From assembly GCA_009773565.1 (NCBI GenBank), contig WSXY01000001.1, positions 62,001 to 126,000 of the forward strand: a stretch of 64,000 nucleotides of DNA, in the 5' to 3' direction. The notes beneath the pieces are model-generated. The model was not told the origin of the DNA and searched no databases. It saw only the letters and a program-made list of their open reading frames with translations. Source of the stretch: Actinomycetota bacterium (lineage in GTDB: Bacteria; Actinomycetota; Coriobacteriia; Anaerosomatales; Anaerosomataceae). Positions 1,749 through 34,977 of the stretch are shown here, one piece after another. Within the stretch, counting starts at the first letter, position 1; every line of letters begins with the position of its first letter. The translations under genes and the position numbers were made by a program.

Positions 1749-2702
1749 CTAGACCCCTCTCTTGGCGGTGATGGCGTCCAGGAGTTCGGCGACAGCGGCG
1801 ATGCGTGGCGTGAACGTGGTGATCTCATCTGGCGTGGCCTGCTCTAGGTTCGAGACCCTCTCGGCGGCACGTTCCAGCGCGGTGATGAGCTTGCCTGCGT
1901 CGGGAGCCTTGGCCACGGTCGGGTCCTTGGCCGTCGCCGACTCCGTCAACGCGGCGACCTGCGCGCCGCTCAGCGCGCCGTCTTCCCCCGACTCGATCTG
2001 TGCCAAGACACGTTCTTGGACATCAATGGGCTGCTGTGCGAGCTCTCGCGCCGTCGTGAACGTGATACGCCGCTCGTCGAGCAAGGCGCGAAGACCCTCG
2101 ATGAGCTTGGTCAGCGAACGGTAGTAAGCGACAGTGCGTGGCGCGAGGTTGACGAGTTCGGCGATCTTGCCGTCCGTCGTCGTCCCCGCTTCAAGGCGCC
2201 CCGCCTCGCGAAGCTCGCCGACAAGGCTTTGGGCAAAGGCGATCGTGTGGATGCGTTCCAGTGTGGAGAGGTCGCGCTGCCGAACGTTGGTGGTGAGCAT
2301 GAGCACACCGGAGTCCAAGTCATCGGAGGGCACGAGGTGGCAGGCCACTTGCCCGAAGCGCCCACCATGACCCTGCTCGACGAGCAGCGAGAGCGCCGCA
2401 TGGCGGCGATGGCCAGCCACGATCATGTACTCGTCCTCGAACTCGGGATGCGGACGCACGACGGGGTAGTGGGCCAGTCCGTTGGCCTCTATGTCGCGCG
2501 CCAGATCCTCGATGCCTCCGAGCTCGAACACCTCGTTGTTGCGCGGGTCCGGGTGGAGCTGGTCGAGGGGCACGGTCACCGACCTGTCTGTCTTCTGGCC
2601 GAGCAGGCTGGTTGGCCGCGCGGAGCGTGCGGCCACGGCCGCCACGCGATCCCTGATCACATCGCCCTGCTTCGCGCCGCGCTCGATCCTCGGTCGCCCC
2701 AT
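1749..2702 (-). CDS. parB: ParB/Spo0J-family partition protein
   Basis: The 317-residue protein has a ParB N-terminal domain at about 40-140: VPLDQLHPDPRNN, then VAGHRRHAAL, which corresponds to the GERRxxA CTP/DNA-binding motif. A helix-turn-helix (KIAELVNLAPRTVAYYRSL) follows, and then a helical C-terminus. ParB proteins bind centromere-like parS sites and spread with CTP to segregate DNA. The gene starts two bases after the parA stop, a standard parAB operon. In an integrated element it probably stabilises the circular intermediate or tunes transfer genes. No classical parS sequence was seen nearby. Confidence 0.9.
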   Translation of the reverse strand: MGRPRIERGAKQGDVIRDRVAAVAARSARPTSLLGQKTDRSVTVPLDQLHPDPRNNEVFELGGIEDLARDIEANGLAHYPVVRPHPEFEDEYMIVAGHRRHAALSLLVEQGHGGRFGQVACHLVPSDDLDSGVLMLTTNVRQRDLSTLERIHTIAFAQSLVGELREAGRLEAGTTTDGKIAELVNLAPRTVAYYRSLTKLIEGLRALLDERRITFTTARELAQQPIDVQERVLAQIESGEDGALSGAQVAALTESATAKDPTVAKAPDAGKLITALERAAERVSNLEQATPDEITTFTPRIAAVAELLDAITAKRGV

Positions 2703-2704
2703 GC

Positions 2705-3505
2705 CTAGCCCTCCTGCCTGATCAGATGCTCGACGAGTTCGGTGTAGTCGGCCGCGCCATGGCTCTTCGGCGCGTAGGACAGCACGCTTCGACCCTCGGC
2801 GTGCGCCTCGCCGATTGCCACGTTTTTGCGAATCGCAAGAGGGTAGAGCAGCCCGGGGAACTGCTCCTCGACAGCCGACGCGATACTGCGGTGCAGTCCC
2901 GTACCGCCCTCGTACTGGGTGAGTAGGATGCCGGCTATTCCTAGGTCCTCGTTGACGCCGGCGTCGATCGTCTCGGCGATGACAGAGCCCAGCATCCCAA
3001 GCCCGCTGACGGCGAAGAGCCCCGGTGTGACCGGAACGATGACCTCACTGGCATAGGCGAGCGCGTTGGCGGTCATGATGCCGAGAGACGGCGGGCAGTC
3101 CAAGATGATGTAGTCGTAGTCGTCCTGCACACCCGGCGCCCGTGTGCCGCTTCCTGGATCGCGTCGGCCCTTCAGAGCGCGGGAGAGAAGGAAATCCCGG
3201 CCCGGCCGGCCGCCGAGATCGTAGTCGGCGCGAGACAGCATCTCAGAGGCGGAAAGCAGGGCGAACTCCGGGCCTGGCACGATAGCCTCTTCGGCGGTCA
3301 TGCTACCCGTCAACACGTCCCACAGGCTTCGCGCCGGTGGTGCGCCGAGCACGCCGGTGGTCAAGTGACACTGGCCATCGAGATCCACGACGAGCACGTC
3401 TCGTCCTTTGGCGGTGAGCCCTGCCGCGACGTTCCAGGCCGTGGTCGTCTTCCCGACGCCGCCCTTCTGTGAGGCGATGGCGATCCGCCTGGTCGTCTTC
3501 TGCAT
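2705..3505 (-). CDS. parA: ParA-family partition ATPase
   Basis: The 266-residue Walker-type ATPase carries SQKGGVGKTTTAWNVAA (deviant Walker A, near residue 13), VLVVDLDGQCH (A') and DYIILDCPPSLGIM (Walker B). It should form ATP-dependent dimers on DNA and move ParB-parS complexes. I chose the ATG at 3503-3505 because AAGGGA lies six bases upstream. Frames extending to 3568 would read through the promoter-like sequence at 3540-3568. The leader resembles those of the RadC-like gene and the gene at 7127-7390, which suggests shared control. It heads the parA-parB-CpaE-membrane-secreted series. Confidence 0.9.
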   Translation of the reverse strand: MQKTTRRIAIASQKGGVGKTTTAWNVAAGLTAKGRDVLVVDLDGQCHLTTGVLGAPPARSLWDVLTGSMTAEEAIVPGPEFALLSASEMLSRADYDLGGRPGRDFLLSRALKGRRDPGSGTRAPGVQDDYDYIILDCPPSLGIMTANALAYASEVIVPVTPGLFAVSGLGMLGSVIAETIDAGVNEDLGIAGILLTQYEGGTGLHRSIASAVEEQFPGLLYPLAIRKNVAIGEAHAEGRSVLSYAPKSHGAADYTELVEHLIRQEG

Positions 3506-3539: not shown

Positions 3540-3568
3540 ACTTGAGCGTACCGAGCGGCCATTGGCAC
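3540..3568 (-). promoter_or_regulatory. Conserved element promoter/operator (parA copy)
   Basis: Read on the minus strand, a GTGCCA -35-like hexamer, a 17-base spacer containing CGGTACGC, and TCAAGT as a -10-like hexamer lie 35 bases before the parA start. The arrangement and spacer match the copies at 6811-6839, 7428-7456 and 14335-14363, although the hexamers are weaker here. Confidence 0.5.
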
Positions 3569-3589
3569 GACCTTTCCGGGAGTGTTCTT

Positions 3590-5110
3590 CTAAGACGACA
3601 GGCCGTCGCGTGGGTCGAGCGTCATTCCGCGGCCCCCGTCCGCGCGCCCGGTCGGGCGTGTGGCTCGTCCGAGCCTGCCCCAGTCGATCCGTGCAACCTC
3701 CTGGGCCGTCCGCGAGCTCTGTGGGGACAGATGCCGTGACACCTGCTCGAGCAGGTGGAGCGTGGCCGCAGTCTGCTGCAGCCCCGCCGAGAGCTCGGGG
3801 AGCGCGTTCTCGTTGCGCCACGCCGCCCACTCGGACGGGCGGAGCGGTTGGGCTTCTGCGAAGACGGCCGCAATGCGGGTCGCCGTCGTCTCAATCGGCT
3901 CGTCGCCCCGACACGACTTGACCATCACGCTGGCGGCCGTGTTCTCGTCGATCCCCGCGGTCATGAGAGCTCGGGCGTAGAACACACGTGTGGGCTCGGG
4001 CGCCCCTTGGAGCAGGTGGTTGCGGGCCACCAGCGGAGCAGTTCGTATGATGCCTTCGCCTGTCCTCAGGAGCTGGATGCTCACGGCGGCCTGCAGCACG
4101 TCGGGAGCCAGTCGCGCTCGCACGTCCACCTCTGCGTTGACGCGCGCGGATGCGAGCTCATCGGGATCGGCGGTGTGATGGCGCTTGAGCTCCACCGCCG
4201 CGTCGGCATACGCAGTGACCTGCTCGGCGATCGGCGCCACCGACACCAGCTTGTCCACGATCCGATCGACTGCGGCCTTCGTCTCAGGTGAGACGTACTT
4301 GTATGCAGCTCGGCCGCGTCCAGGCAGTGTGCGCGACAAGGCATCCAGGTCGCGCGTGAGGCCTGAGACCGTAGGGAGGGCGAGCCCCGCTCCAATCCGC
4401 CGCCGTTCCTCGACGGCCAGAGAGAGGGATGTGGTGCCGAACATGCGGACCTCGGAGCGCGCGCGGCCCTTAGCCTCATACACACCTTCGCGCACTGCGC
4501 CGTAGATCTCGCGGGTGAAGGCCCCGCGAAGGGCCTTCAGCCGAGGAGCGGGTATGTGGCCTGCTCCCGCTCGCCGCTGGGGGACTACTCGCTTGAACGC
4601 GGGACTGTCGGCCCTGTCCCAGAGCATGATGTGCGCATGCGGATGCCCGGCCACGGGATTGTGGTGGGCCGCCACCCAGCGCATGTTCTCGCGCGGGATT
4701 CCGGTAGCCGTGGACAGAGCATCGACGCTGGCGCGAACGTGGCGCTCCCACTGCGCCTTGGAGTCCAGGCCAAGCTCCTCGGCGTCAGCTCGGCTGACGG
4801 AGACGATCACGCGGTAGAGCGGGGCGTGCGAAAGCCCTGCGAGCTCATCGGTGACGGAGGCAAGATCGGGGATGCCGTTCTCGTCGAACAAGCCGTGGGC
4901 CCCGCCGTCGGCGGCCACGCCGGGGCGCTCGGCGATGTAGCGGGTGTACGTGGCGTCGTCCGCAACATCGCGAGTCACCATCCGCGCGACGGAATCGGCC
5001 GTGACGGTCAGGTCCGTGCCGGGCCGCGTGGCTATGTAGGCGGCGTGCGCGCCGTCCCCGGCGCTCGGAGCGGCGTAGCTGACTTTGACGACGAGAGGCC
5101 CGAGTGTCAC
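3590..5110 (-). CDS. MobL/MobP-type conjugative relaxase
   Basis: This 506-residue protein should nick the element at oriT and lead the transferred strand into the recipient. The metal-binding histidine motif HHNPVAGHPHAHIMLW starts at residue 149, typical of MobL relaxases. The N-terminal region (KVSYAAPSAGDGAHAAYIA) and the RVIVSVSRADAEELGL segment also fit that family. The C-terminal half is helical and Ala-rich with no obvious helicase motifs. The GTG start overlaps the stop of the upstream MobC-like gene by four bases (GTGA), so the two are coupled. The hairpin-rich region on the other side of that gene is the likely substrate. Confidence 0.8.
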   Translation of the reverse strand: MTLGPLVVKVSYAAPSAGDGAHAAYIATRPGTDLTVTADSVARMVTRDVADDATYTRYIAERPGVAADGGAHGLFDENGIPDLASVTDELAGLSHAPLYRVIVSVSRADAEELGLDSKAQWERHVRASVDALSTATGIPRENMRWVAAHHNPVAGHPHAHIMLWDRADSPAFKRVVPQRRAGAGHIPAPRLKALRGAFTREIYGAVREGVYEAKGRARSEVRMFGTTSLSLAVEERRRIGAGLALPTVSGLTRDLDALSRTLPGRGRAAYKYVSPETKAAVDRIVDKLVSVAPIAEQVTAYADAAVELKRHHTADPDELASARVNAEVDVRARLAPDVLQAAVSIQLLRTGEGIIRTAPLVARNHLLQGAPEPTRVFYARALMTAGIDENTAASVMVKSCRGDEPIETTATRIAAVFAEAQPLRPSEWAAWRNENALPELSAGLQQTAATLHLLEQVSRHLSPQSSRTAQEVARIDWGRLGRATRPTGRADGGRGMTLDPRDGLSS

Positions 5111-5556
5111 GGCGTGCTCCCCGCCCCGTCATCATCCGGCCTCGATTCGGGCTGCTTCGCACCCATGTATTTGAACCCGTGGCCCTCTGCCTCTCGCCAC
5201 ATCTGCGTGACACCCTGCGGATCGAGTTCGAGGACCCTGCTGAGTATCTCGCGGTCGAAGTACACCATCGCGGCCGTGATACCGCCGACCCGATAGAGCC
5301 TCTTATGCAGCCGCTCCGAGTGCGTCTCCATCTCGGCTTTGACAACGCTGCGCAGTAGACGCTCCACGTCGTAGTAGCGCTCACCGAAGATCTGCGGGTC
5401 CATCCCCACCAGCATCACTTCGCGCCCTTTGACGGCCATCGCAACGCCGTCGTTGGCCGCCAAGGCTGAAAGCCTGTCGTAGTCTTCCGGCGTCAGCCGG
5501 ATCATCAGGCGCTTCGGCCTTCCCGCGCTTCCCAGAGGCACACGCTTGTTTGACAC
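5107..5556 (-). CDS. MobC-like mobilisation accessory protein
   Basis: A GTG at 5554-5556 preceded by GAAGGG is the preferred start and gives 149 residues; a longer frame to 5682 would cover part of the hairpin region. Near the N-terminus, RPKRLMIRLTPEDYDRLSAL looks like a ribbon-helix-helix or mobilisation-protein segment, and a helical stretch follows (YYDVERLLRSVVKAEM). Its position, directly upstream of and overlapping the relaxase and next to a palindrome array, fits an oriT-binding accessory factor. I see no family-defining motif beyond this, so the assignment rests mostly on context. Confidence 0.55.
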   Translation of the reverse strand: MSNKRVPLGSAGRPKRLMIRLTPEDYDRLSALAANDGVAMAVKGREVMLVGMDPQIFGERYYDVERLLRSVVKAEMETHSERLHKRLYRVGGITAAMVYFDREILSRVLELDPQGVTQMWREAEGHGFKYMGAKQPESRPDDDGAGSTP

Positions 5557-5590
5557 GACAGGCACCCTTCCATCCGAGGACTGGTATGCA

Positions 5591-6291
5591 AGAGCGCATA
5601 GTACGCGCTCTGCACGAGTGCACAGGACTTTCGCCTCGGAGGACAGATCAAAGGGCCACTTCCGAGCAGCTCTCGTGCTCAACTGTGAGCAGCTCCAGGT
5701 CGCCGCAAGTGCCCGATAGCAACTCTGCCGCTGGGCGGAGTCTCGGACGCGTTTCAGCTGCTCACCGGCTTAGCCGGTGATGCGTTTCCTTCGCGGTGCT
5801 GCGTATTGAGCAGCGACGCTTATCCTGCGTTCTCTCTTCAAGCCCCGGACTCGCTGAGCCCGGTGTGAGTGGAGTCCGGGATGTGGCGCAGAAAGTCCGA
5901 GTCTCCGACCCCCGAGGCAGGTCGGAGACGCTCGGGCTGTCCACAGGTGGGCTGCCTGTGGTCAGGCTGACGGACGGTCGCAGGCCCTGCGCCGGTCCAG
6001 GGCCGGACTCGAGGTCGAGCGGCTGTCCACAGCGGACCTAGCTGTGGCCAGGCGTACGACGCGGCAACGCGACGGGGCACCCGGCTCGATTGAGCTGGGC
6101 GCCCCGTCCCCGGAGAAGTGTCAGCAAGTCCGGGAAGCACACGGCTCAATCAAGAGCCGTCAGGAATGATGATACCGCGCGCTGGCGCGAAGCGCTGGTT
6201 TGCCCGCGAGCGACTTTGATCTCTATGGGGCGACGCCCCCAAGTTCCCGCTCGCGGGGGCTTGGGGGCCGGGCGCAAACCCGACCCCCAAG
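5591..6291. repeat. Array of hairpins; candidate origin of transfer
   Basis: The non-coding stretch 5557-6302 contains many inverted repeats: 5591-5611 (AGAGCGC/GCGCTCT), 5762-5780 (TCACCGGC/GCCGGTGA, 3-base loop), 5844-5880 (CCCGGACT/AGTCCGGG), 5901-5929 (GTCTCCGAC/GTCGGAGAC), 5941-5961 (CCACAGG/CCTGTGG), 6027-6047 (CCACAGC/GCTGTGG), 6072-6107 (16-base arms, 14 matched), 6141-6160 (ACGGCTC/GAGCCGT), 6203-6257 (CCCGCGAGCG/CGCTCGCGGG) and 6236-6291 (CCCCCAAG arms). The direct repeat GAGCAGCTC occurs at 5664 and 5687. The array sits directly upstream of the MobC-like and relaxase genes, so oriT is the leading reading. A replication origin or regulatory RNA is possible. Confidence 0.6.
6260..6291 (-). 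terminator. Hairpin after RadC-like gene
   Basis: Directly after the minus-strand stop at 6303 lies a hairpin with arms CTTGGGGG and CCCCCAAG plus inner GGG/CCC pairing. No U-run follows, so termination is probable rather than certain. The arm at 6260 can instead pair with 6236-6243. Confidence 0.4.
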
Positions 6292-6302
6292 TAGTGTGCT
6301 TT

Positions 6303-6773
6303 CTACATCAGACCCAAGTCACGAAGCGAGGCGATGGACTCGTCACCTACAACGACGTGGTCGAGGAGTTCGATACCGAGGACGTCCCCACCCTTGACGA
6401 GGCGGCGAGTCAGCTGGATGTCGGCTCCGCTCGGAGTCGGGTCGCCGCTCGGGTGGTTGTGGGCGATGACGATGGAGGCTGCCGAGAGCATCACGGCGGG
6501 CTTGAACAGTTCGCGAGGGTGGACGATTGAGGCGTTCAGGCTTCCGACCGACACGGCCCACGCACCGATTACGCGGTTCTTGGTGTTGAGCGCCAGCGCG
6601 ACGAACTGCTCGCGGTCGAGGTGGTCGAAGTCGAACAGGTCACGAACGACCTTTGCGGCATCCTCGGGCGTACTCACGGTGTTGAGTTCGCTCGATACCG
6701 TTTCGCGCACGAGGTATGTCGAAACTACCTGCAGCGCCATGCCTTGCGGGTAACTCTTCTTGCTCCTTGCCAT
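6303..6773 (-). CDS. RadC-like JAB-domain protein of mobile element
   Basis: This 156-residue protein consists almost entirely of the RadC/MPN (JAB) domain. Its signature is AHNHPSGDPTPSGADI near residues 108-123, followed by LLDHVVVGDES. Chromosomal RadC proteins of about 225 residues have an N-terminal helix-hairpin-helix region that is missing here. Short JAB-only forms are frequent on plasmids and integrative elements; their role is unclear, and RadC itself is no longer considered an established repair enzyme. The ATG at 6771-6773 has AAGGGAG upstream. The gene has its own copy of the conserved element promoter. Confidence 0.8.
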   Translation of the reverse strand: MARSKKSYPQGMALQVVSTYLVRETVSSELNTVSTPEDAAKVVRDLFDFDHLDREQFVALALNTKNRVIGAWAVSVGSLNASIVHPRELFKPAVMLSAASIVIAHNHPSGDPTPSGADIQLTRRLVKGGDVLGIELLDHVVVGDESIASLRDLGLM

Positions 6774-6810
6774 TGTGGTGCTCCCTTCATTGCGACTTGC
6801 TGACACCTTT

Positions 6811-6839
6811 AGTGTAGCGTATCGCGCAACTAATGGCAA
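6811..6839 (-). promoter_or_regulatory. Conserved element promoter/operator (RadC-like copy)
   Basis: The minus-strand reading is TTGCCA, a 17-base spacer (TTAGTTGCGCGATACGC), then TACACT. The start codon follows about 37 bases downstream. The spacer and -10 are nearly identical to 7428-7456. The AGT...ACT ends of the core are partly palindromic, which suggests a repressor bound between -35 and -10. The remaining sequence between 6840 and 7093 shows no supportable gene. Confidence 0.65.
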
Positions 6840-7093
6840 GGACTATTCTCAAAATACTTGCAGGTCAGAGCATGTTTTTTGGCAGAGAGCCGGACGCCTC
6901 AACCTTGGCCGCCCGAACATCGCCGACCCCATCCCCCATCTTCCATGCCGAAGATCTGGCGGTCGCAGCCGAGGCGCAGCCGGTGAGGAGTCCTCGGCGG
7001 ATGGTGCCGAGGGCGAACGACAGCCGGGGCGGCTCGGCGGGTGCGGGCGTTCGGCCCTGGCCGACCTTGGCGCTATGCACGAGTGCAGAGCGG

Positions 7094-7121
7094 TGGGCCC
7101 CCGGACGAATCCGGGGGCCCA
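7094..7121 (-). terminator. Perfect 12-bp hairpin after the HTH gene
   Basis: Arms TGGGCCCCCGGA (7094-7105) and TCCGGGGGCCCA (7110-7121) pair perfectly around a CGAA loop (TTCG on the minus strand, a very stable tetraloop). The hairpin lies a few bases after the minus-strand stop at 7127. There is no U-run. Confidence 0.55.
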
Positions 7122-7126
7122 GAGGC

Positions 7127-7390
7127 CTACAGTGCCAGCCACGTCTCCTCGTCGACAATCTCCTCGAACAGGTCGTCGAAGTTCATGTTCAAGACTCCCG
7201 CAAGATCATCGAGCACGTAGAAGTTGATGCGCCTCTTGTGTAGCGCGACGGCCATCCATTCTGAGGACTTGCCAAGCAACTCGCTCGCCTCGCGGTTGTT
7301 GACGAATCGGCGGCGCAGCACCAGGCGCAACTTCGCGGGGTCGATGGGGATTGATGTTGCCGGCCGCACCCGCTTCTTGGTTTCGCTCAT
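7127..7390 (-). CDS. XRE-like helix-turn-helix regulator
   Basis: The protein has 87 residues from the ATG at 7388-7390, with AAGGGAGC eight bases upstream. The segment LRLVLRRRFVNNREASELLGKSSEWMAVALHKRRINFYVLDDLAGVL has the spacing of a XRE/Cro-type helix-turn-helix, followed by an acidic tail (FDDLFEEIVDEETW). Its own promoter carries the conserved element operator, so it is a good candidate for the autoregulated regulator of the parA, RadC-like and 14087-14317 promoters. That link is inferred from shared sequence only. Confidence 0.6.
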   Translation of the reverse strand: MSETKKRVRPATSIPIDPAKLRLVLRRRFVNNREASELLGKSSEWMAVALHKRRINFYVLDDLAGVLNMNFDDLFEEIVDEETWLAL

Positions 7391-7427
7391 CTGTCTTGCT
7401 CCCTTCGGTTGGCTTGCTGACACCTCT

Positions 7428-7456
7428 AGTGTAGCGTACCGCGCAACTCATGGCAA
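7428..7456 (-). promoter_or_regulatory. Conserved element promoter/operator (HTH gene copy)
   Basis: TTGCCA, a 17-base spacer (TGAGTTGCGCGGTACGC) and TACACT are read on the minus strand, followed about 38 bases later by the start codon. Apart from two spacer changes it is identical to the copy at 6811-6839, and the flanking ACACTAxAGGTGTCAGCAAG is conserved too, so leader and promoter were duplicated together. Confidence 0.65.
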
Positions 7457-7490
7457 GACGTAACGGGAAGAAAGCTGCAGGTAAATGGCA

Positions 7491-7766
7491 CTATTCTGAC
7501 GGAGCCGCCTCGCGCTCGACGATGATGTGTGAGGCATGACGAGTTCGGACGGCGCTCATCGCCAGCTCGTCTGGGTGTGCGAGGTCGGACAGCATGTCAC
7601 GACCTGCCTCGTACTGTCGTTCGATTGCTCGCTCGATGTCCGTCAGCGCGCGCTCCGCCTCGCGCTCGTCCCCCGACACCGGCACCGCGAACGTGTCACC
7701 GGGGGCAAGCATGAGAGCCTTCGCGGCTATGGCGTCGATTCGGGCGTCTCTATCATCGGCGGTCAT
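7491..7766 (-). CDS. Hypothetical small acidic protein
   Basis: The 91-residue protein starts at the ATG at 7764-7766 with AAAGG upstream, in a leader (CGATGAAAGGA) similar to that of parA. The sequence is mostly helical and charged (REAERALTDIERAIERQYEAGRDML) with no cysteines or membrane span. I recognise no family. The region upstream holds only a degenerate likeness of the conserved element promoter. It sits between the HTH gene and the IS30 remnant. Confidence 0.5.
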   Translation of the reverse strand: MTADDRDARIDAIAAKALMLAPGDTFAVPVSGDEREAERALTDIERAIERQYEAGRDMLSDLAHPDELAMSAVRTRHASHIIVEREAAPSE

Positions 7767-7877
7767 CTGCGGTCCTTTCATCGACTCAGACAACAGGGAG
7801 GCTAGCACGCATCGCTTTCCGGCCGCTTACCCCGCCGTTTCCACGCCGAGGGTCTAGCAGTCACAGTACCGAGCCCG

Positions 7878-8039
7878 CAATCACCGATGATACGCGCAGA
7901 CTGCGACTGGGTCGCCGCCAAACTCAACTCACGGCCGAGGAAACGACTGGACTACAAGACCCCGGAGGAACGCTATGCCGCGACCAGGTAGGCGTCAGAA
8001 AGCTAGGACTCAGTGGTGCAGTTCAAAGTTGAACTTACG
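7878..8039 (+). pseudogene. IS30-family transposase C-terminal remnant
   Basis: Plus-strand translation from 7905 gives DWVAAKLNSRPRKRLDYKTP and then EERYAATR before a stop at 7989. This is the hallmark C-terminal segment of IS30 transposases (LNxRPRKxLxYxTPxE). In the same frame, after a second stop at 8004, SVVQFKVELT resembles the family's last residues. No catalytic DDE portion, start codon or left terminal repeat remains. The fragment lies where the attC of the DinB-like cassette would be expected, so an insertion and later decay may have removed it. Confidence 0.65.
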
Positions 8040-8073
8040 TGCTCCGCGGCGCGCGAACACCGATTGTCCGCTT

Positions 8074-8511
8074 CTACCGAGAGGGCAGGACTCCCTCAAT
8101 TTGATCCAGGTGCTCGCGGCGGTGCTGCGCTCGTTCGAGACTGCGTACCTTGCCGTTGGACTGGATGACCTCAGCCAGTTCCGGCGGGACAGATTGCGCC
8201 TCGAGGTCCACGGCGTCCGCCGCGCTGCGAACCATGTCGGCGGCGGTGCGATCCGGGATGGCGGCGGCCAGGACGAGGACGGCGGAGTTCAGCGCCTCGA
8301 AGTTCGTCTGCGAAACCCAGAACCCTGAGTCCTGCCACTGCCGTAGACACGAGCGGGTGTACTCGTCCCAGAACGCCAGGTGTACGAGTACGTTTGCTAC
8401 GGTGAGGCCGTTCGGGAGAATGCGAGCTAGGTCGTCGTCAGAGAGGCGCGCGAGCAGCGTGTGGAGCCGGTCACGCTCGACGTCGTTGGCGGACACATAT
8501 GCAGGCTTCAA
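8074..8511 (-). CDS. DinB-like four-helix protein (cassette gene)
   Basis: The 145-residue protein has a TTG start at 8509-8511 preceded by AAGGTGG. The segment LTVANVLVHLAFWDEYTRSCL resembles the metal-histidine helix of the DinB/YfiT-like (maleylpyruvate isomerase N-terminal) fold. Such proteins are often thiol-dependent transferases or of unknown function. The gene begins about 45 bases after the GTTAGAT end of an attC-like site, as expected for the first gene of an integron cassette. Its own downstream attC is not visible and may be lost at the IS30 remnant. Confidence 0.6.
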   Translation of the reverse strand: MKPAYVSANDVERDRLHTLLARLSDDDLARILPNGLTVANVLVHLAFWDEYTRSCLRQWQDSGFWVSQTNFEALNSAVLVLAAAIPDRTAADMVRSAADAVDLEAQSVPPELAEVIQSNGKVRSLERAQHRREHLDQIEGVLPSR

Positions 8512-8555
8512 CTCGTCACCACCTTAGCATGCTGAACACCGGTCTTCAGGGATGC

Positions 8556-8611
8556 ATCTAACGTCCTAGGGATAAACCACAATGCGAAGCGTTGGCGGGT
8601 GTTTGTTAGGC
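8556..8611 (-). repeat. Integron attC-like site 1
   Basis: On the minus strand the site begins with GCCTAAC (R'', fits RYYYAAC) and ends with GTTAGAT (R', fits GTTRRRY), 56 bases in total. The ends are the classical integron core sites, and the following GTTAGATGC is typical of cassette junctions. The internal stem is imperfect, weaker than in the sites at 11750 and 12590. It lies after the ABC permease gene and before the DinB-like gene. Confidence 0.5.
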
Positions 8612-8683
8612 GCTTCACAGCGCCCATCGACCGCAACACCGTTGATCCCTCAGCAGTATCGCCTTCCCGCGACGGGCAGTGCG

Positions 8684-10189
8684 TCATTCCCTCGAGAAGC
8701 GCACCATCAAGCCTAGAAGAACCACGATTGCGACCGCCGCGGCGCAGGCCAACCACAGTGAGCCTGCCGCGCCAGCATAGAGCACGATGCAGGCGCTGAT
8801 TGTGGCACTGATGCCGTAGCCGATGGGCGCTCGCATCCGCGGCAGCGTCAGCCGCTCAAGCCCTCGGCACATCACGGCGATCACCCCGAACATCAGGCAG
8901 AGTAGCGCCCCAAGAACCCGCTGTTCGGACGCCATCGTCTGTACTGCCATCGCAACCGCCGATGTTCCGACGGTGATGGCAAGCACGGGCACCGAGTCGA
9001 TCAACAGCAGGCTCAGGTTGTCGAAAGGCAGCACCTCGCGCAGGGACGGGCGATCGATGTCCTGCTGGAACACGTGCAGAAGCTGCCTGGATGGACCGAC
9101 CACAAAGAAGAACACCGGCGGGAAATACGCCAGGAGCCCTGGTGGATGAATCACCGTGACCGCCACGTACGGCAGCAGAGCCGCGCCCCAAAGGACCGGC
9201 CATACCAGCGACCCGGGCTGCCGGACATGCGACACGAGAGCTCGCGCGACTAGAGCCCAAGCCCCCCCTCCGCTCGGTAGGTGCCACATGGGCTTACGCG
9301 CCGCCAGCCGCTTGCGGCGAGCGATGTCCGCATACGCGCCCGCGTCGTAGCGCTGAAGCGGGCGGAATACCTCAAGTTGCGCGTAGAGCGCGCTTCCGTC
9401 GATGACGGCGACCATGTCCATCTTGCTCGCGGCGACGACCACCAACCACACGTCGATCACACTGACCACGAGCAAGGCCAGCACGTGCCCTGCCACCGGT
9501 GCGCCGTTCAGCGCCAGCACCAGCGCGGTCCCCGGCCACCGGACGGCGGCGGGCGGAAGCAGGAGCGCCAGTGCTACCAGTGGTGCGGCGACCCATGACA
9601 CCGAGCGCCTAGCCCGGGATCCGATCCGGATGCGCGCGAGTCCAGCCGCCCAAGCAAGCAGGAAGACCGCGGACACCAGCAAGGCGCCGACAACAGCCGT
9701 CGAACCCGCCGCAGTCTGCGGCGAACCCATTCCCACCGCGACACTGCCGGCCAGATAGCTCAAAGGAACGGCAGCAAGCGTCGCCGGGATGACCTCGCGA
9801 AGGCAGCTCGAGAGCGCGACCGCGCGCCTGTCGAGCGCGGACGCCCCGACGTAGGCGATATCGGGGAATGTGAGTTTGACCGGCGAGGAGCGCAGGGTCC
9901 GAAAGCCGAGCGCTCCCACGAGAAGGCTCGGAACCACGAACGCCAGGGCCACCACAGCAGGGCGCATGGATGCCCCGAGACCGGCCCCCGCGCCCATCGC
10001 TTCGCTGGCCGCAGCCGCCATCATCGCCACGAACCATGCGCCGAACAGCACCACAAGGTAGATGAGGTAGGTGCGCTCACCGATCAACGCGGAGCCTAGG
10101 TCGGCTCCCGCCAACGCCGCCCAGTAGTCGGCGCGTCCGCGTGCGTGACGCCACCGCAGCCACACGAGCAGCATCAGGTCACTCATCAT
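8684..10189 (-). CDS. ABC transporter permease, multi-span membrane protein
   Basis: The 501-residue protein has about 10-12 hydrophobic spans, arranged as N- and C-terminal clusters around a central soluble loop (FRPLQRYDAGAYADIARRKRLAAR). The ATG start overlaps the stop of the ATPase gene (ATGA), so both are co-translated and form an exporter-type ABC system. Substrate cannot be inferred. The frame extends further upstream, but that would overlap the ATPase by 80 bases. The gene ends about 70 bases before attC-like site 1, so the ATPase-permease pair could be a two-gene cassette. Confidence 0.7.
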   Translation of the reverse strand: MMSDLMLLVWLRWRHARGRADYWAALAGADLGSALIGERTYLIYLVVLFGAWFVAMMAAAASEAMGAGAGLGASMRPAVVALAFVVPSLLVGALGFRTLRSSPVKLTFPDIAYVGASALDRRAVALSSCLREVIPATLAAVPLSYLAGSVAVGMGSPQTAAGSTAVVGALLVSAVFLLAWAAGLARIRIGSRARRSVSWVAAPLVALALLLPPAAVRWPGTALVLALNGAPVAGHVLALLVVSVIDVWLVVVAASKMDMVAVIDGSALYAQLEVFRPLQRYDAGAYADIARRKRLAARKPMWHLPSGGGAWALVARALVSHVRQPGSLVWPVLWGAALLPYVAVTVIHPPGLLAYFPPVFFFVVGPSRQLLHVFQQDIDRPSLREVLPFDNLSLLLIDSVPVLAITVGTSAVAMAVQTMASEQRVLGALLCLMFGVIAVMCRGLERLTLPRMRAPIGYGISATISACIVLYAGAAGSLWLACAAAVAIVVLLGLMVRFSRE

Positions 10190-10929
10190 GCGGGCGACTC
10201 CGCGGACTCCAGCGCCGATCGAAGCAGCCCATCGAGCGTGTTCGCGCAGTCGGTTCCGAGTCCGGCCCACGGTCCCTCGTCGACGATCGTGCCGCCGTCG
10301 AGCACGAAGAAGCGGTCAGGAGCAGCGCCTTCCGGCAGCTGATGGCTGCTGAGAAGCACCGAGCCGCCGGTAGATGCGAGCGTGCGCAACTCCAACCACA
10401 ACTCCCTTGCGGACACCGGGTCGATGGGGCCGAACGGCTCGTCAAGCAGAAGCAGCCGCGGTCGTAACGCGAGGGCGAGCACGAGTGCGAGTTTGTAGCG
10501 CATGCCGCGCGAGAACGTCGACGGGTAGGCGTCGGCGGCATCGCCCAAGCCGAATGTGTCCAGCAGCCGCTCTGCTTCGGCCTCACGCTGCCCCAAACGG
10601 TTCGCGCGCAGCACGAAAGTGACGTGTTCACGCGCGGTGAGATCATCGTAAAAAGGTGGGGTGTCTGTGACCAGGACGAGTTCGCGGCGCAGCTGCCTGT
10701 CGGCTACGCCATACGGCTGTCCAAGGACCTCGACACGACCCTCGCCCGGCGAGCTCCACCCTGCGGCGCAACGCAGCAGAGTGGACTTTCCGGCGCCGTT
10801 GCGACCGATCAGGACGGCGATCTCGCCCGCGGCAACTGACAGATTGACGTCTCGCAGCACCGGCGCCTGGGCGTACGAGAATGCAACGTCGCGCATCGTC
10901 AGAGTGCTTGTTGGGGCTTCGATCGTCAC
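10186..10929 (-). CDS. ABC transporter ATP-binding protein
   Basis: The 247-residue nucleotide-binding subunit has Walker A GRNGAGKST (near residue 42), the signature-like FSRGMRYKLALVLAL, Walker B LLLLDEPFGPID and the switch histidine in VLLSSHQL. The usual LSGGQ is altered to FSRGM, as in many CcmA/NatA-type exporters. The GTG start at 10927-10929 has GAGG six bases upstream. It overlaps the permease gene by four bases. The 260 bases before it hold the degenerate attC at 11068-11151 and no further gene. Confidence 0.85.
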   Translation of the reverse strand: MTIEAPTSTLTMRDVAFSYAQAPVLRDVNLSVAAGEIAVLIGRNGAGKSTLLRCAAGWSSPGEGRVEVLGQPYGVADRQLRRELVLVTDTPPFYDDLTAREHVTFVLRANRLGQREAEAERLLDTFGLGDAADAYPSTFSRGMRYKLALVLALALRPRLLLLDEPFGPIDPVSARELWLELRTLASTGGSVLLSSHQLPEGAAPDRFFVLDGGTIVDEGPWAGLGTDCANTLDGLLRSALESAESPA

Positions 10930-11067
10930 GGTCCACCTCGCGTCGTGTAGTACCCGCTAATCTACCCAGAGAGAGCAGTCATCGCGAACTCCCCGGGCAC
11001 CCAGACTCGCACATCCGAGGAATCGAAGACATCGGCGCACCCAACTCATGCGATCGCCAGCAATGCG

Positions 11068-11151
11068 CCTACGTGTTTAGGTTTGAGCGGCGGGTTTGCC
11101 GCTTTCTTCCATGCTATACCTTGCGCCGTCCGCTCGGAACCTTGGTTAGCC
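11068..11151 (-). repeat. Degenerate integron attC-like site 4
   Basis: On the minus strand the site starts GGCTAAC and ends near GTAGGC, a GTTAGGC core lacking one base. The arms GAGCGG-A-CGG and CCG-CCGCTC pair with one extrahelical A, the feature that distinguishes attC stems from ordinary hairpins. It lies 40 bases after the stop of the GrpB-family gene, where its attC is expected. Confidence 0.4.
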
Positions 11152-11191
11152 GGGACGCTCGCGCCCATCATCCACGCCTATGGGGCGCCAC

Positions 11192-11734
11192 CTACTCGTG
11201 GATGCCTGGCAACAGAATCGACTCGCGTTGATCATGAGCCGCCAGATAGGCTGCCAGAAGAGAATCGATGAACCGCTCCTTGGCCTGCCGATACGAGGCC
11301 ATACTCCGACCGACATAGCGCGATTTCAGGTCGTTGTACTCGTTCAGTGCGTCCGAGTCCGATTCCAGTGCCGCCTTCACGTAGTGGAAGTGATTGTCGA
11401 TGTCGCTGCCGACGACCACCAGCTGAATGGACACGGACGCTCCATCGACCGAGTAGTCATACTCCGCGTACTCGAGCGTTCGCTCGTTCCTCGAGCTGGG
11501 GATGAGCAGTTCGTCCAGAACGAGTTGCGCCTTAAGGAAATCCGCCGCGCCGACTCTGACGAGGACATCAAGATCACCCTTGGTCAGACTGCCTGCCACG
11601 GCAGTGCTGCCAACATGTTCAATAGCCGAAGAGGGGAGTCGCGCGAAGAGATCCGCAGCGATCGTGCGGAAGAGTCGTCGCGCCTGCGAGGTATCAGCGG
11701 CGGACAGCGTGAACAGTTCCTGCTCGTCAGTCAT
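11192..11734 (-). CDS. GrpB-family (UPF0157) nucleotidyltransferase-like protein (cassette gene)
   Basis: The 180-residue protein has the family pattern IEHVGSTAVAGSLTKGDLDVLVRV (read in two parts, residues about 38-61), a GS...DxD nucleotidyltransferase core, followed by LQLVVVGSD-like and YNDLKSRYVG segments. GrpB/UPF0157 proteins are frequent cassette passengers, and their substrate is unknown. The ATG lies only about 20 bases after the GTTAGCC end of attC 2, leaving no room for a normal promoter, which is typical of integron cassettes expressed from outside. Confidence 0.8.
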   Translation of the reverse strand: MTDEQELFTLSAADTSQARRLFRTIAADLFARLPSSAIEHVGSTAVAGSLTKGDLDVLVRVGAADFLKAQLVLDELLIPSSRNERTLEYAEYDYSVDGASVSIQLVVVGSDIDNHFHYVKAALESDSDALNEYNDLKSRYVGRSMASYRQAKERFIDSLLAAYLAAHDQRESILLPGIHE

Positions 11735-11749
11735 GGCTGCCTCGTTTCC

Positions 11750-11834
11750 GGCTAACGTGTTGCGCCTGAGCAGACGCCCGCGCTTATCCTGGTCAGTCTA
11801 GCTCTTGGCGTTCTGCTCGATACGCTTGTTAGCC
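11750..11834 (-). repeat. Integron attC site 2
   Basis: Outer sites GGCTAAC and GTTAGCC pair perfectly. The inner arms GAGCAG-A-ACGCC and GGCGTCTGCTC pair with a single extrahelical A, as in genuine attC folds. Most of the 85-base site is highly similar to attC 3, including the loop segment TAGACTxACCAGGA. The upstream gene's stop codon lies inside it. Confidence 0.8.
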
Positions 11835-12565
11835 ATCGCCCCACACTGCTCAGTGAACAGATTAACCAGTCGCTCGTGCACTTCGACCGCGGCAATCGTC
11901 TGAGGCGTTAGGGCATCCACAACCTCTTGAAGAGAAACCGGTGCCTCGACCGTGAGCATCTCGACTCCATTGGGAAGTCGCACGTGCTTACGCCGAGATC
12001 CCATCGCGATGTTGTTGGGTGCGCCGTGGTGAAACTCATTCCGAAACCCGCGAGTTGCGCGCCGATAGGCAGCGTTGTTGAGGGTGCCCAGCGCACGGTG
12101 CAGCGGTGGCCAGGAGTCCCAGAACTGCGCCATGTACTGCGCGAGCTCACGCTTGGAGTGCCCGAGCTCACCATAGTCGGGCCAGGATGGAACCAGGCGT
12201 CCATTCGCATGGTTGGAGACGACCGCAATGTCGTGAAAGCAGCGCCCCTTGATCGCGGCGGGCGCCTCCAGACAGTAGTAGGCAAGCGGCAATGCCAGCT
12301 CGAAGACAACGTCGAATTGCTCATTCTCGTCGAGGCCGACAACCAGCGTGGTCAGCGCACGTAAGCGCCGGAGATTGAACACGAACGAATTGACGAAGTT
12401 GCCAAGATCCTGGATCGACTGCTGTGCGGTCACGGAGAAGGCATCGCCGAATGGAAGACCGGCGCACTTGAGCCGGGCATCGGTCGCCAGCCGTGGCTTT
12501 TCTGGCAGGGCCAGCCGCAAGCGGCGCCATTCGCGATACAGCTGAACAGCACGGTCTTCGTCCAC
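11798..12565 (-). CDS. Cassette protein of unknown function with RNEFHH motif
   Basis: The 255-residue soluble, mostly helical protein starts at a GTG (12563-12565) about 25 bases after the end of attC 3. A conserved-looking RGFRNEFHHGAP segment resembles the Rx4-6H motif of HEPN ribonucleases, and the helical layout fits, but this is only a suggestion. The last 11 codons (ANKRIEQNAKS) are read from within attC 2, a pattern well known among integron cassette proteins. No membrane span or signal peptide is seen. Confidence 0.65.
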   Translation of the reverse strand: MDEDRAVQLYREWRRLRLALPEKPRLATDARLKCAGLPFGDAFSVTAQQSIQDLGNFVNSFVFNLRRLRALTTLVVGLDENEQFDVVFELALPLAYYCLEAPAAIKGRCFHDIAVVSNHANGRLVPSWPDYGELGHSKRELAQYMAQFWDSWPPLHRALGTLNNAAYRRATRGFRNEFHHGAPNNIAMGSRRKHVRLPNGVEMLTVEAPVSLQEVVDALTPQTIAAVEVHERLVNLFTEQCGAMANKRIEQNAKS

Positions 12566-12589
12566 TGCCGGCCCCCGGTTCCTGCGAAT

Positions 12590-12675
12590 GGCTAACGCAT
12601 TTGCGCATCAGCTGCGCGCCGATGCCGTCCTGGTAAGTCTACCGCTTGCGCGTCAGCTGGATGCGCTTGTTAGCT
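12590..12675 (-). repeat. Integron attC site 3
   Basis: The 86-base site begins AGCTAAC and ends GTTAGCC on the minus strand. The arms GCGCATC-C-AGCTG-A-CGCGC and GCGCGCAGCTGATGCGC pair along 17 bases with two extrahelical bases (C and A) on one side only. That asymmetry is the structural signature by which integron integrases choose the attC strand. It starts eight bases after the stop of the lipoprotein gene. Confidence 0.85.
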
Positions 12676-12682
12676 CGATCGC

Positions 12683-13240
12683 CTAGCGCTGAACCGGCGC
12701 TTCGACGAGCGAGGTCACGGTGCCGCCTGTCACGGTCACGAACCAGTAGGACTCTTGGTAGGCCGCACTGTTCTTGCCTCCACCGTTGAGATCCGCGAAG
12801 AAATCAACATACGACAAGGGCATTGGAGCGGACGCGTCCACATACGGCTGTCCGAGCGGTGCGTTTACGTAGACGCCTCCGAGCGGATCGAGAACAAGCG
12901 ACTGGTGATACGTCGACTCGTTGGTGATCGTTGTGCCGTGGACCGGGACCGACCACAGGCCCTCTGTCGAGACCCAGTCGACCTCGAACCGGATGGTGCC
13001 CGTGCTGCCGGGAAAGATGCGCCCCAGATAGACACCCGCAGTCGCATCTTTGGCAGGCTCCGGATTTGGACGTAGGTACATCAGCTGATCGGCCCATCCG
13101 GCACGCACAGTGGTCGCGGTGGATTCGTCGCTTACGGCCGGCGTCGAGGGAGACACCGTAGGTGCACCGCAACCGGACAGCATCCCGACGAGCGCGCCGA
13201 GAAGCAACACGACGAGCAGTCGACCACTGGAGCCTGTCAC
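12683..13240 (-). CDS. Putative lipoprotein (cassette gene)
   Basis: The 185-residue protein has a lipoprotein signal: GRLLVVLLLGALVGMLSGCG, with the lipobox LSGC at residues 21-24. A Ser/Thr/Pro linker follows and then a beta-rich domain with RFEVDWVSTEGLWSV and TTITNESTYHQS. It would be exported and anchored to the outer face of the membrane. The GTG at 13238-13240 is chosen because GAGGAG precedes it by six bases; a longer frame to 13300 is less likely. It is immediately followed by attC 3. The domain is not recognised. Confidence 0.65.
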   Translation of the reverse strand: MTGSSGRLLVVLLLGALVGMLSGCGAPTVSPSTPAVSDESTATTVRAGWADQLMYLRPNPEPAKDATAGVYLGRIFPGSTGTIRFEVDWVSTEGLWSVPVHGTTITNESTYHQSLVLDPLGGVYVNAPLGQPYVDASAPMPLSYVDFFADLNGGGKNSAAYQESYWFVTVTGGTVTSLVEAPVQR

Positions 13241-13359
13241 GGCGATCTCCTCGATTCGAGCTAGCAAAGATTCTGCAGTCTGCATAACAGGATATGACAA
13301 GAGACCCCAGCGTGTCTGCCGAGGTCCCTTCAGTGGAGAATAACGAATTTCGACGCCTT

Positions 13360-13578
13360 CTACGCGCGTGTGACGCGCGAGAATGCAGTCTCGTCCGCGA
13401 CCTCAAGCGGCGGCATTCCGCCTTCGATTGCATCCGCGATCGCCGCGGCGGCGGCGAGCGCACTCGGATACCATTCCTCAAGCGCGGTGGTGGCGAGACC
13501 GCCGGGCATCACAACTCGCACACCGCCACCGTCCGCAGCAACGATTCGGTAGAGGTCCCGACTCTCGTACACGCTCAT
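13360..13578 (-). CDS. Small hypothetical protein
   Basis: The 72-residue protein (MSVYESRDLYRIVAADGGG...) starts at an ATG whose first bases overlap the stop of the upstream DNA-binding gene (ATGA), so it is probably coupled to it. It is predicted as a short beta segment followed by an Ala-rich helix (YPSALAAAAAIADAIEGG). No family is recognised. It closes the three-gene operon 14317-13360. Confidence 0.55.
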   Translation of the reverse strand: MSVYESRDLYRIVAADGGGVRVVMPGGLATTALEEWYPSALAAAAAIADAIEGGMPPLEVADETAFSRVTRA

Positions 13579-14087
13579 CGCCCCTCCCGCTTCTTCTTGA
13601 TGGCGGGTAGCGCGTCTGGCAACACGACCCACGGACTCTTGTGAGCCGCAGGTTCGAGCTTCCTGGAGTACGGCACGACGCCTTTGTACATGTCCGCCCG
13701 CAGAGTCTTGGCAGGCATCCCGACAATCGCCGCCGCTTCGTCGGCGAGCATCAACTCCGACAGGAACAGACCGACGAGGCGATCTGCCTCTTCCGGTCCG
13801 AACAGTTCGCCCAAAGCCTCACGCGCCGTCTGCGGCCGGCCGGGTATCGGCTCGCGCACGACCACCCAGCGGGGTTGGCCGTGTGGTTTCACCGACTCGG
13901 ACATGAGCCTCGCGTGCTTCGTGTCGCCCTGCGACAGTCGGTACTCGAAGACGCTGAGCGACATGCCGAGCTCGGCGGCTGCCTCGCGCTTCGTCATGAG
14001 ATCTTCCAAGAACATCTGAGTGAGGCGATCGGCCTCATCAGCCCCTACTCGACCGACTAACTCAGCGTGCGCGGTTCTCTTGGTCAT
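13575..14087 (-). CDS. Protein with two tandem HTH-like repeats
   Basis: The 170 residues consist of two copies of a roughly 75-residue unit. GADEADRLTQMFLEDLMTKREAAAELGM (near residue 15) and GPEEADRLVGLFLSELMLADEAAAIVGM (near 97) align closely, and each is followed by a recognition-helix-like segment and a PRWVV/SPWVV strand. Each unit looks like a helix-turn-helix with a small wing, so the protein may bind a two-fold site as a monomer. The start overlaps the upstream stop codon (TGATG). A regulator or element-specific DNA-organising role is inferred. Confidence 0.6.
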   Translation of the reverse strand: MTKRTAHAELVGRVGADEADRLTQMFLEDLMTKREAAAELGMSLSVFEYRLSQGDTKHARLMSESVKPHGQPRWVVVREPIPGRPQTAREALGELFGPEEADRLVGLFLSELMLADEAAAIVGMPAKTLRADMYKGVVPYSRKLEPAAHKSPWVVLPDALPAIKKKREGR

Positions 14088-14317
14088 CAGCTATGTCCCT
14101 CCTCAGTTACCTCCTCTCGTGCACCGAGGAGGAATCTCTCCACGAAGTTGAGCCCTTTGGTTACGTTCTCTTCCATCCTGAGACTCAGCGCTTGCTCAAG
14201 AGCATTGCCCTGGTCCGTCCAGTCGGTCAGCCTGTCGCACTTTTCTTCCATCGCCAGACGGATCGTGGCAAACGCGCGTATCACGTCGCGCTTCTTGACG
14301 TCCTTGAACTCTCTCAC
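14087..14317 (-). CDS. Small helical protein, first gene of regulatory operon
   Basis: The 76-residue protein is all helical and charged (RDVIRAFATIRLAMEEKCDRL). A GTG start at 14315-14317 has AGGAGG eight bases upstream. The conserved element promoter lies so close (14335-14363) that the leader would be only about 10 bases. It is coupled by a one-base overlap to the tandem-HTH gene. No family is recognised. Confidence 0.55.
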   Translation of the reverse strand: MREFKDVKKRDVIRAFATIRLAMEEKCDRLTDWTDQGNALEQALSLRMEENVTKGLNFVERFLLGAREEVTEEGHS

Positions 14318-14334
14318 GCGCCGATCCTCCTCTC

Positions 14335-14363
14335 AGTGTGGCGTACCGCGTGACTGATGGCAA
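14335..14363 (-). promoter_or_regulatory. Conserved element promoter/operator (third copy)
   Basis: TTGCCA, a 17-base spacer (TCAGTCACGCGGTACGC) and CACACT are read on the minus strand. The match to the copies at 6811 and 7428 covers both hexamers and the CGCGGTACGC core. The short distance to the GTG start at 14317 would put the ribosome site at the transcription start, so the sequence may act mainly as an operator here. Confidence 0.55.
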
Positions 14364-15762: not shown

Positions 15763-16662
15763 GTGACATCGCGAATCAGCTCGGTATCACCCGCCGCCCT
15801 CGTGGACTTCCAGTGGTGGCGCATGGCAGAAGGCCGATGGATCGGCCTTAAGAACCAGCGTCTATTGGCGGGCCACCCCGCAGATGATGGCTATCAGCCC
15901 CTGAAGAGCGAGCCGGCGCTGTTCCGGAGATTCGCGGATCAACGAGACTCTGAAGACGCTTTCGCGGCGTTCGCTGCCAGGTACGGCGATCTAGATGGCG
16001 GCGGCGTGGTGGTTGTCGACGACCACATGGCGACTGGCGAGGAGATGGCGAGCAGTGACCCGTTCCTCGTGTACTCGGAGGGTCGCAGCCTCCAGATCTG
16101 GCGGGGGCACCGCCAGATGCTCGCCTTCGCGGTTCGACTCTGGGACGCAATCAACGAAGGAAGGGCTGACGAGTTGATAGGTACGGATCTGCTCGTGAAG
16201 CCATACGACTCCCTCGTCGAGCCGGGCAAGCCCGCACCCAAGTACATGGTCTGGACACGCACCGCATCCGCGCAGCATGACCTGGGATTGACCACTCCGA
16301 AGACGTTCGACGAGCAGTTCGAGCCGGCCACGCCGCTCATGAAGGCAAGCCTTCCGGAAGTGGCGGCTCGTGCTGCTCTCGCCAATCTCGTGTCCGAGAT
16401 GTGCGCGACCGTGCGGGTGGTGATGCGAGTAACGAGCGCACAGCCGGGCGGTCTTCGACTCACATTCGAAGTTCGGTCGCTCATAGCGGCAATGTGGCTG
16501 CAGTTTGCGCTCGCGGTCGACGGGCAGCGAGAGTATCGCCCCTGTCCGGTCTGTGGCGACTGGTGGGATGCGACCGAGGCCCGGTCTGATAGGAAAACCT
16601 GCAGCGACCGATGTCGCAAGCGAATGCATCGCCAAGCAGTGTCTGGAGTAACCGGAGTATGA
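15763..16662 (+). CDS. Zinc-finger protein upstream of integrase
   Basis: The protein has 299 residues from a GTG at 15763 that has GGAGG eight bases upstream; the ATG at 15748 lies before that ribosome site and is less likely. The body is an unrecognised mixed alpha/beta domain. The C-terminus has a CGNR-like zinc finger, CPVCGDWWDATEARSDRKTC followed by SDRCRKRMHRQ (C-x2-C ... C-x3-C plus basic residues). Proteins of this layout often sit beside integrases in actinobacterial elements. The stop overlaps the integrase start (ATGA). Confidence 0.6.
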   Translation: MTSRISSVSPAALVDFQWWRMAEGRWIGLKNQRLLAGHPADDGYQPLKSEPALFRRFADQRDSEDAFAAFAARYGDLDGGGVVVVDDHMATGEEMASSDPFLVYSEGRSLQIWRGHRQMLAFAVRLWDAINEGRADELIGTDLLVKPYDSLVEPGKPAPKYMVWTRTASAQHDLGLTTPKTFDEQFEPATPLMKASLPEVAARAALANLVSEMCATVRVVMRVTSAQPGGLRLTFEVRSLIAAMWLQFALAVDGQREYRPCPVCGDWWDATEARSDRKTCSDRCRKRMHRQAVSGVTGV

Positions 16663-34281: not shown

Positions 34282-34977
34282 CTACACCACCTCCGCGAGC
34301 CGTCTGGCGATGGCCGTGAAGATCGCGGCACCGTCTGTTCCGCCGACGGCCGGGTCGACGACCCGCTCCGGATGCGGCATGAGTCCGAATACGTTTCCGC
34401 GCTCGTTGCAGATGCCGGCGATATCATCGAGCGCGCCATTGGGAGCGCTTCCGCCGTCAGCGCGCGTGCCGTCCGGCTCGCAGTAGCGCAGGACGACCTG
34501 GCCGTTGCCGTTCAGGCGTGCGAGGGTTTCCTCATCGCAGATGTAGTTGCCCTCGTTGTGGTTGATGGGGATTCTCAGCAGCGTGCCGGCGGGCTCGTCC
34601 AGCCACTGGCAGATGCTCGGCTCAACCTTGAGCGTCGCCTCGCGACAGATGAACTTGAGGCCGCGATTGCGCAGCAGCGCGCCGGGGAGCAGGTGCGCCT
34701 CGGCGAGGATCTGGAAGCCGTTGCAGATTCCGAGAACGGGGCCGCCGCGACCGGCGAAGCGGATGACCTCGGCCATCACGGGTGAGAAGCGCGCGACCGC
34801 GCCGCAGCGGATGTAGTCGCCGTACGAGAACCCGCCCGGCAAGACGATCGCGTCAAAGCCGGAGAGGTCGGTCGAGCCATGCCAGACGAACTCGGCCTCG
34901 TAACCGAGGGTGTTCGCGGCATGAATGACGTCTTGCTCGCAGTTGCTACCGGGGAAGATGACGACGCCGAAACGCAT
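34282..34977 (-). CDS. purQ: PurQ, FGAM synthetase glutaminase subunit
   Basis: The 231-residue class I glutamine amidotransferase supplies ammonia to PurL. It has [15 protein letters not shown] at the N-terminus, [15 protein letters not shown], the nucleophile in [11 protein letters not shown] (Cys) and the C-terminal His-Glu in [11 protein letters not shown] at 34975-34977, four bases after purS. Confidence 0.96.

Follow-up and report, generated by a model that had tools for sequence, protein, structure and literature searches.

A candidate operator shared by the radC, regulator and partition leaders of a coriobacterial conjugative element, and a putative antisense RNA

The stretch of DNA analysed here, hereafter the window, comprises 64,000 bp (positions 62,001 to 126,000 of contig WSXY01000001.1, assembly GCA_009773565.1). 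The region studied is part of a ~45-kb element bounded by 26-nt repeats of the end of a tRNA-Glu gene (contig positions 34795 and 79914, the latter being window position 17914). By its gene content it is an integrative conjugative element (ICE) of uncultured Coriobacteriia whose excision and transfer are predicted. Four related sequences precede its genes for partition, a RadC protein, a small regulator and a tandem helix-turn-helix (HTH) protein. They are likely copies of one operator, and the radC and regulator leaders have a second sequence in common that is complementary to a candidate antisense RNA. The sites and the genes behind them are:

6811-6839, minus strand: site 1, predicted promoter-operator of radC (TTGCCA-17-TACACT), kept in 10/10 close copies examined
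7428-7456, minus strand: site 2, predicted promoter-operator of the 87-aa regulator gene, kept in 11/11 close copies examined
14335-14363, minus strand: site 3, predicted promoter-operator of the p14087/tandem-HTH gene pair, with CACACT as −10 (consensus scan)
3540-3568, minus strand: site 4, operator-like sequence without a −10 in the parA leader (matrix score)
6303-6773, minus strand: short RadC with a JAB domain (PF04002, 7.9e-41)
7127-7390, minus strand: 87-aa protein, putatively Cro/C1-like, candidate repressor (HTH_26 match at family level, layout of an AlphaFold2 model)
14087-14317, minus strand: p14087, first gene behind site 3 (open reading frame kept in relatives)
13575-14087, minus strand: tandem-HTH protein (weak PHROG matches, excisionase/MerR-like)
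2705-3505, minus strand: ParA partition ATPase (AAA_31/ParA family)
6860-6865, minus strand: ACCTGC upstream of radC, 20 nt from the −35 (also present in G069, a distant element described below)
7477-7482, minus strand: ACCTGC upstream of the regulator gene, likewise 20 nt from the −35

An earlier note on this DNA had described all four sequences as promoters of the TTGCCA-17-TACACT type. They are present where it placed them, all on the minus strand, and its assignment of the neighbouring genes (RadC, ParA, the small gene at 7127-7390, p14087 with the tandem-HTH gene) is correct. The promoter description fits the copies at 6811, 7428 and 14335 and fails for the one at 3540, which reads GTGCCA...TCAAGT (TCGGTT in two relatives), has no T at the first position of the −35 and lacks a −10. 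Sites 1-3 are near-identical sigma-70-like promoters that fit one 29-nt consensus. With three mismatches allowed this consensus finds just these three sites in the window (0 expected from 100 shuffles) and again just these three in the 2.27-Mb genome (0 for the reversed-pattern control). One sequence thus occupies several promoters of the element and is found nowhere else in the genome, as expected of a KorA/KorB-like regulon; a host sigma regulon was rejected on account of the lack of any copy in the rest of the genome. The common spacer core CGCGGTACGC was rejected as evidence on its own: it is exact in only two of the sites, and was found 12 times against 13.07 expected. Recombination sites of the dif type were considered and set aside for want of symmetric arms. 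Searches of viral contigs with the 87-aa protein and with the patterns returned nothing useful. The ACCTGC hexamers are possibly activator sites near −61; the radC-side copy persists in G069 together with its A-rich surroundings containing ATGCT.

The spacer between the hexamers is conserved beyond what sigma factor recognition needs, as had been proposed. Across the close copies examined (10 of radC, 11 of the regulator gene and 8 of p14087) the −35 is invariant, and the mean majority per position is 0.92-0.94 in the spacer vs 0.64-0.79 in the 25 nt upstream. The positions TTGCCAT..GT and TACGC are invariant in 26/26 intact sites over the three paralogous promoters (10 radC, 11 regulator and 5 of the 8 p14087 copies, after exclusion of the deletion copies in G031, G111 and G115 C191). 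The earlier note would have been refuted by related elements in which the genes are kept and the spacer is lost. This was examined, and close relatives that keep the genes keep the spacer in 9/9 genomes.

Site 4 was evaluated with a 24-nt matrix that had been derived from sites 1-3 (24 copies, nine genomes). It scores 18.3, the highest value in 40 random 64-kb sequences being 17.8, and its counterparts score 18.3-20.9 in all seven elements that hold the region (the one in the window included). A pattern written after site 4 had been seen finds, with at most two mismatches, five places in the genome of which four are sites 1-4 (two places for the reversed control). A reading of site 4 as the 5′ end of the parA coding sequence was considered and rejected, as codon phase and synonymous counts look non-coding: 31 synonymous vs 65 non-synonymous codon differences are found in the leader, against 1051 vs 231 in parA (six of the seven sequences compared; G125a was left out because its contig ends). 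On this sequence evidence site 4 is operator-like but promoterless. Weaker matrix matches (11.2-15.7) recur in G000, G057, G031 and G077 in a coding region beyond the left edge of the window, and others are found in parB of two elements and, at 17.0, in G031. The same data bear on the possibility that plain promoters were spread by segmental duplication and that the spacer was kept through recent ancestry only. Sites 1 and 2 do have a leader in common besides the promoter, and promoter spacing at site 3 can be lost. However, the spacer stands out from its decayed flanks at three paralogous promoters in 9 genomes, and site 4 retains the spacer motif in the absence of a promoter; we regard duplication alone as very improbable.

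Not described in the earlier note is a second box, common to the leaders of the regulator gene and radC and complementary to an antisense-like RNA that is encoded downstream of radC. The RNA appeared as a conserved block in an alignment of the DNA that separates radC from the mobilisation genes. The features concerned are:

6063-6162, minus strand: three-hairpin RNA, candidate antisense RNA, behind radC (fold, conservation, covariance model)
6118-6130, minus strand: antisense box GACTTGCTGACAC in the loop of hairpin 2 (complementarity to the leaders)
6794-6806, minus strand: leader box GTGTCAGCAAGTC of radC (complementarity to the loop)
7411-7423, minus strand: leader box GTGTCAGCAAGCC of the regulator gene (complementarity to the loop)
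6169-6174, minus strand: TATCAT, −10-like, just before the RNA (invariant in 8/8, no clear −35)

The predicted fold has a minimum free energy of −58.7 kcal/mol (z −6.1), and none of 200 shuffled sequences was equally stable. In the eight elements that could be compared (the contigs of G115 end short of the region) 86 of 100 columns of the RNA are invariant, vs 41/130 upstream, 22/175 downstream and 103/156 at third codon positions of radC. All pair cells of the alignment are standard (203/203). The loop of hairpin 2 is invariant. In both leaders, that of radC and that of the regulator gene, the box that it matches follows the −10 and lies ahead of the Shine-Dalgarno sequence. The longest exact complement to the loop measures 12-13 nt in the radC leader and 11-13 nt in that of the regulator gene, in 8/8 elements; 21 other leaders of the element reach 5-8 nt, and shuffled RNAs reached 12 nt in 0 of 3000 cases. 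When the whole genome is searched for the 13-mer with one mismatch, these three places are found plus one other. The predicted duplexes extend into the Shine-Dalgarno sequence, with −32.6 kcal/mol for the regulator leader (best of 23) and −29.7 kcal/mol for radC (third). The block thus combines a stable fold, conservation and a loop complementary to the leaders of its putative targets, as expected of an antisense RNA. FinP and the CI RNA of P4 likewise present, in a loop, an antisense sequence to a leader; to our knowledge the RNA described here has no sequence relation to either. A scan of positions 5000-8000 against Rfam gave no family at E values up to 1, C4 antisense RNA included. The covariance model finds the RNA in 8/69 genomes of the order, in these elements only, apart from echoes of its hairpins on the opposite strand (E 0.001-0.007). 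Strong GC-rich hairpins are also found immediately after the radC stop codon (6227-6300, minus strand) and are kept in most copies.

The shared box could instead be a protein-binding DNA site, the hairpin copy included, rather than a site of RNA pairing. This would accord with its three copies per element in both orientations. However, the loop that holds the third copy belongs to a stable three-hairpin fold, this copy is antisense to both leaders in 8/8 elements, and changes in the stems preserve pairing throughout, so that we consider a DNA site doubtful as the explanation.

A more distant element type, represented by G069, was compared with the element of the window. Its proteins are 71% (RadC), 38% (ParA), 34% (relaxase) and 33% (ParB) identical to those of the latter. 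Neither the operator nor the three-hairpin RNA was found in G069. Its radC and parA leaders have instead TTACGCKTTGTGCTA in common, a shared 15-mer placed in promoter register. The 19-nt pattern derived from this motif occurs at just these two places in the G069 genome and in 0/295 other genomes, and 0/400 random first-order sequences matched the pair as well. We read G069 as having the same wiring of radC and parA with another specificity, that is, with a re-specified operator.

Which protein would bind the operator was considered for three candidates, the 87-aa protein and the following:

1749-2702, minus strand: ParB-like protein (ParB models of Pfam, NCBIfam and PHROGs)
5107-5682, minus strand: p5107, accessory protein of mobilisation with an uncertain start codon, possibly of the ribbon-helix-helix type (Arc-like PHROG match, no better than E 0.028)

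The family of the 87-aa protein appears Cro/C1-like by sequence: HTH_26 is matched by 11 of 15 members (best 5.2e-5), although the protein of the window itself (0.018, 15.7 bits) does not reach the cut-off of 22. Its AlphaFold2 model has a five-helix layout at low confidence (mean predicted local distance difference test (pLDDT) 53.7), the HTH of DdrO is a weak match in the PDB (E 0.22), and an hhalign comparison with the other HTH protein of the element (13%) was of no help. At ≥90% identity its gene is found in exactly the same 9 genomes as the sites (searches of 296 and 292 genomes), a coincidence that is not specific to it because other core genes travel along. Two sites flank it in every copy. 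Distant homologues (27-31%) were found in four genomes including that of the window (L111, L112, L113, L114). They have a tyrosine recombinase and a RadC gene close by, and this integrase-RadC cassette is without the operator motif. The 87-aa protein is our first choice as binder, a matter of judgement and not of computation to which we give slightly less than an even chance.

ParB is the strongest competitor. It would bind the sites as scattered, promoter-overlapping parS-like sequences, one protein serving partition and repression, as in IncC plasmids, where parS and the −10 of the parA promoter overlap and further copies lie near operon promoters (PMC10954446). Both element types encode ParA and ParB and have a site before parA, and no multi-copy palindrome that might serve as a separate parS was found to be conserved in 5/5 elements. 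The 87-aa protein has no detectable homologue in G069, while ParB is common to both types; this therefore weakens the case for the former and raises that for the latter. The operator, however, seems to lack the inverted repeat usual for parS, and the two sites flanking the 87-aa gene in every copy count against ParB; ParB as the binder is unlikely. Still less credible is p5107 as a repressor in the manner of RA3 MobC, which represses its own operon and binds its promoter in the spacer that separates the two hexamers (PMC4175270). A protein related to p5107, 153 aa long in G069, precedes the relaxase in both element types. On the other hand, the matrix has no match in the origin of transfer (oriT) region or in the p5107 leader, and the ribbon-helix-helix fold is putative (Arc-like match at E 0.028, AlphaFold2 model with a mean pLDDT of 39.8).

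These observations are compatible with the following model. Sites 1-4 would be copies of one operator, three overlapping the −35, spacer and −10 of sigma-70 promoters and one standing promoterless in the parA leader. In the quiet state an element-encoded repressor, most likely the 87-aa protein under its own control, would sit on all four; on induction radC, the regulator gene and p14087 with the tandem-HTH gene would be released together. A second layer would act on the transcripts from sites 1 and 2, which carry the common box just before the Shine-Dalgarno sequence. The three-hairpin RNA, transcribed from a promoter of its own or processed out of the 3′ end of the radC message, would base-pair with the box and onwards into the Shine-Dalgarno sequence, and so lower translation of radC and of the regulator. 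We assign a probability of about 0.6 to shared operator and antisense RNA taken as a whole. The more specific proposal of a two-tier switch, in which the operator coordinates radC, regulator and partition, a previously undescribed RNA silences radC and the regulator, and the operator is re-specified in the distant element, is tentative and in our estimate falls just below even odds. If correct, radC expression would be self-limiting and the repressor level tuned by RNA, conjugative elements of uncultured Coriobacteriia would gain a concrete regulon, and the poorly understood RadC of mobile elements, for whose domains a role in nucleic acid processing was proposed (PMC5512222), would be tied to the same switch as partition and the element repressor.

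Several observations weigh against this model. The operator has no clear palindrome and is weakly symmetric by inspection. Site 4 never has a −10, and in 3/8 copies of site 3 a 5-bp deletion has shortened the spacer to 12 nt, so that no normal promoter is left there, though the left 21 nt are kept. These two facts together suggest that the conserved entity is an operator and not the promoter as such; they also mean that the single element-wide regulon of the earlier note, whose observations are partly confirmed, is partly supported as an interpretation, its shared motif holding while its promoters do not hold at parA and at these copies of site 3. Covariation in the RNA is modest (one doubly changed pair and four single-side changes, a score reached by 14/500 shuffles), the duplex energies are no more than moderately unusual (equalled by 3 and 7 of 1000 random leaders), and the RNA has neither a clear −35 nor a strong terminator. 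The G069 motif was first noticed by eye, and 3/390 random segment pairs of the G069 contig scored equally high.

We do not claim membership in any known system, and the resemblances listed here are to the manner of working. In RK2/RP4 the KorA and KorB operators lie on promoters for replication, stable inheritance and transfer, a KorA operator overlapping a −10 (PMC2680271); the present element likewise has predicted operators on several promoters and a candidate repressor of its own, but instead of palindromes it uses a predicted asymmetric operator of 24-29 nt, one copy of which is promoterless. In IncC plasmids and SGI1, too, a motif precedes parA and recurs close to further operon promoters (PMC10954446), although parS is described there as a 22-bp inverted repeat present in 12-14 copies in most IncC plasmids, compared with four asymmetric copies here. 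C4 of phage P1 is an antisense RNA of a mobile element controlling a gene of the same element (PMC8201110), as proposed for the candidate RNA. Fold, targets and context differ from those of C4, and the box is here common to two leaders.

The remaining features of the element in the window are:

3590-5110, minus strand: MobP3-family relaxase (NF041499, above cut-off)
5740-5830, minus strand: oriT-like block (aligned in 7 elements)
16611-17954, plus strand: tyrosine integrase, abutting tRNA-Glu

The integrase next to the tRNA gene, the direct repeat on the far side, the relaxase and a TraG-type P-loop protein as transfer ATPase (L025:1818-3686) together form the gene set of an ICE. Close relatives, with gene order kept, are found in 9/296 genomes of the class, which belong to several families of one order and include uncultured Coriobacteriia and HGW-Actinobacteria-1. 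A plasmid megablast with the element gave a single irrelevant match, RadC found generic relatives only among plasmids (all <60% identity), and ParB as bait gained no further elements. Literature searches combining RadC, ICE, partition, repressor and operator found no paper, and those on integrative or conjugative elements of Coriobacteriia (OPB41) found none on this element as judged by title and start of abstract. Blocks similar to the oriT-like one precede the relaxase genes of L118 and of G069. Downstream of the par region the element encodes an 891-aa protein with SpaA and sortase domains (L025:10942-13617, minus strand). The tRNA-Glu end repeat occurs three times in contig 1 of the genome (G000; 5194, 34795 and 79913), and the interval from 5194 to 34795 may hold a further element or remnant.

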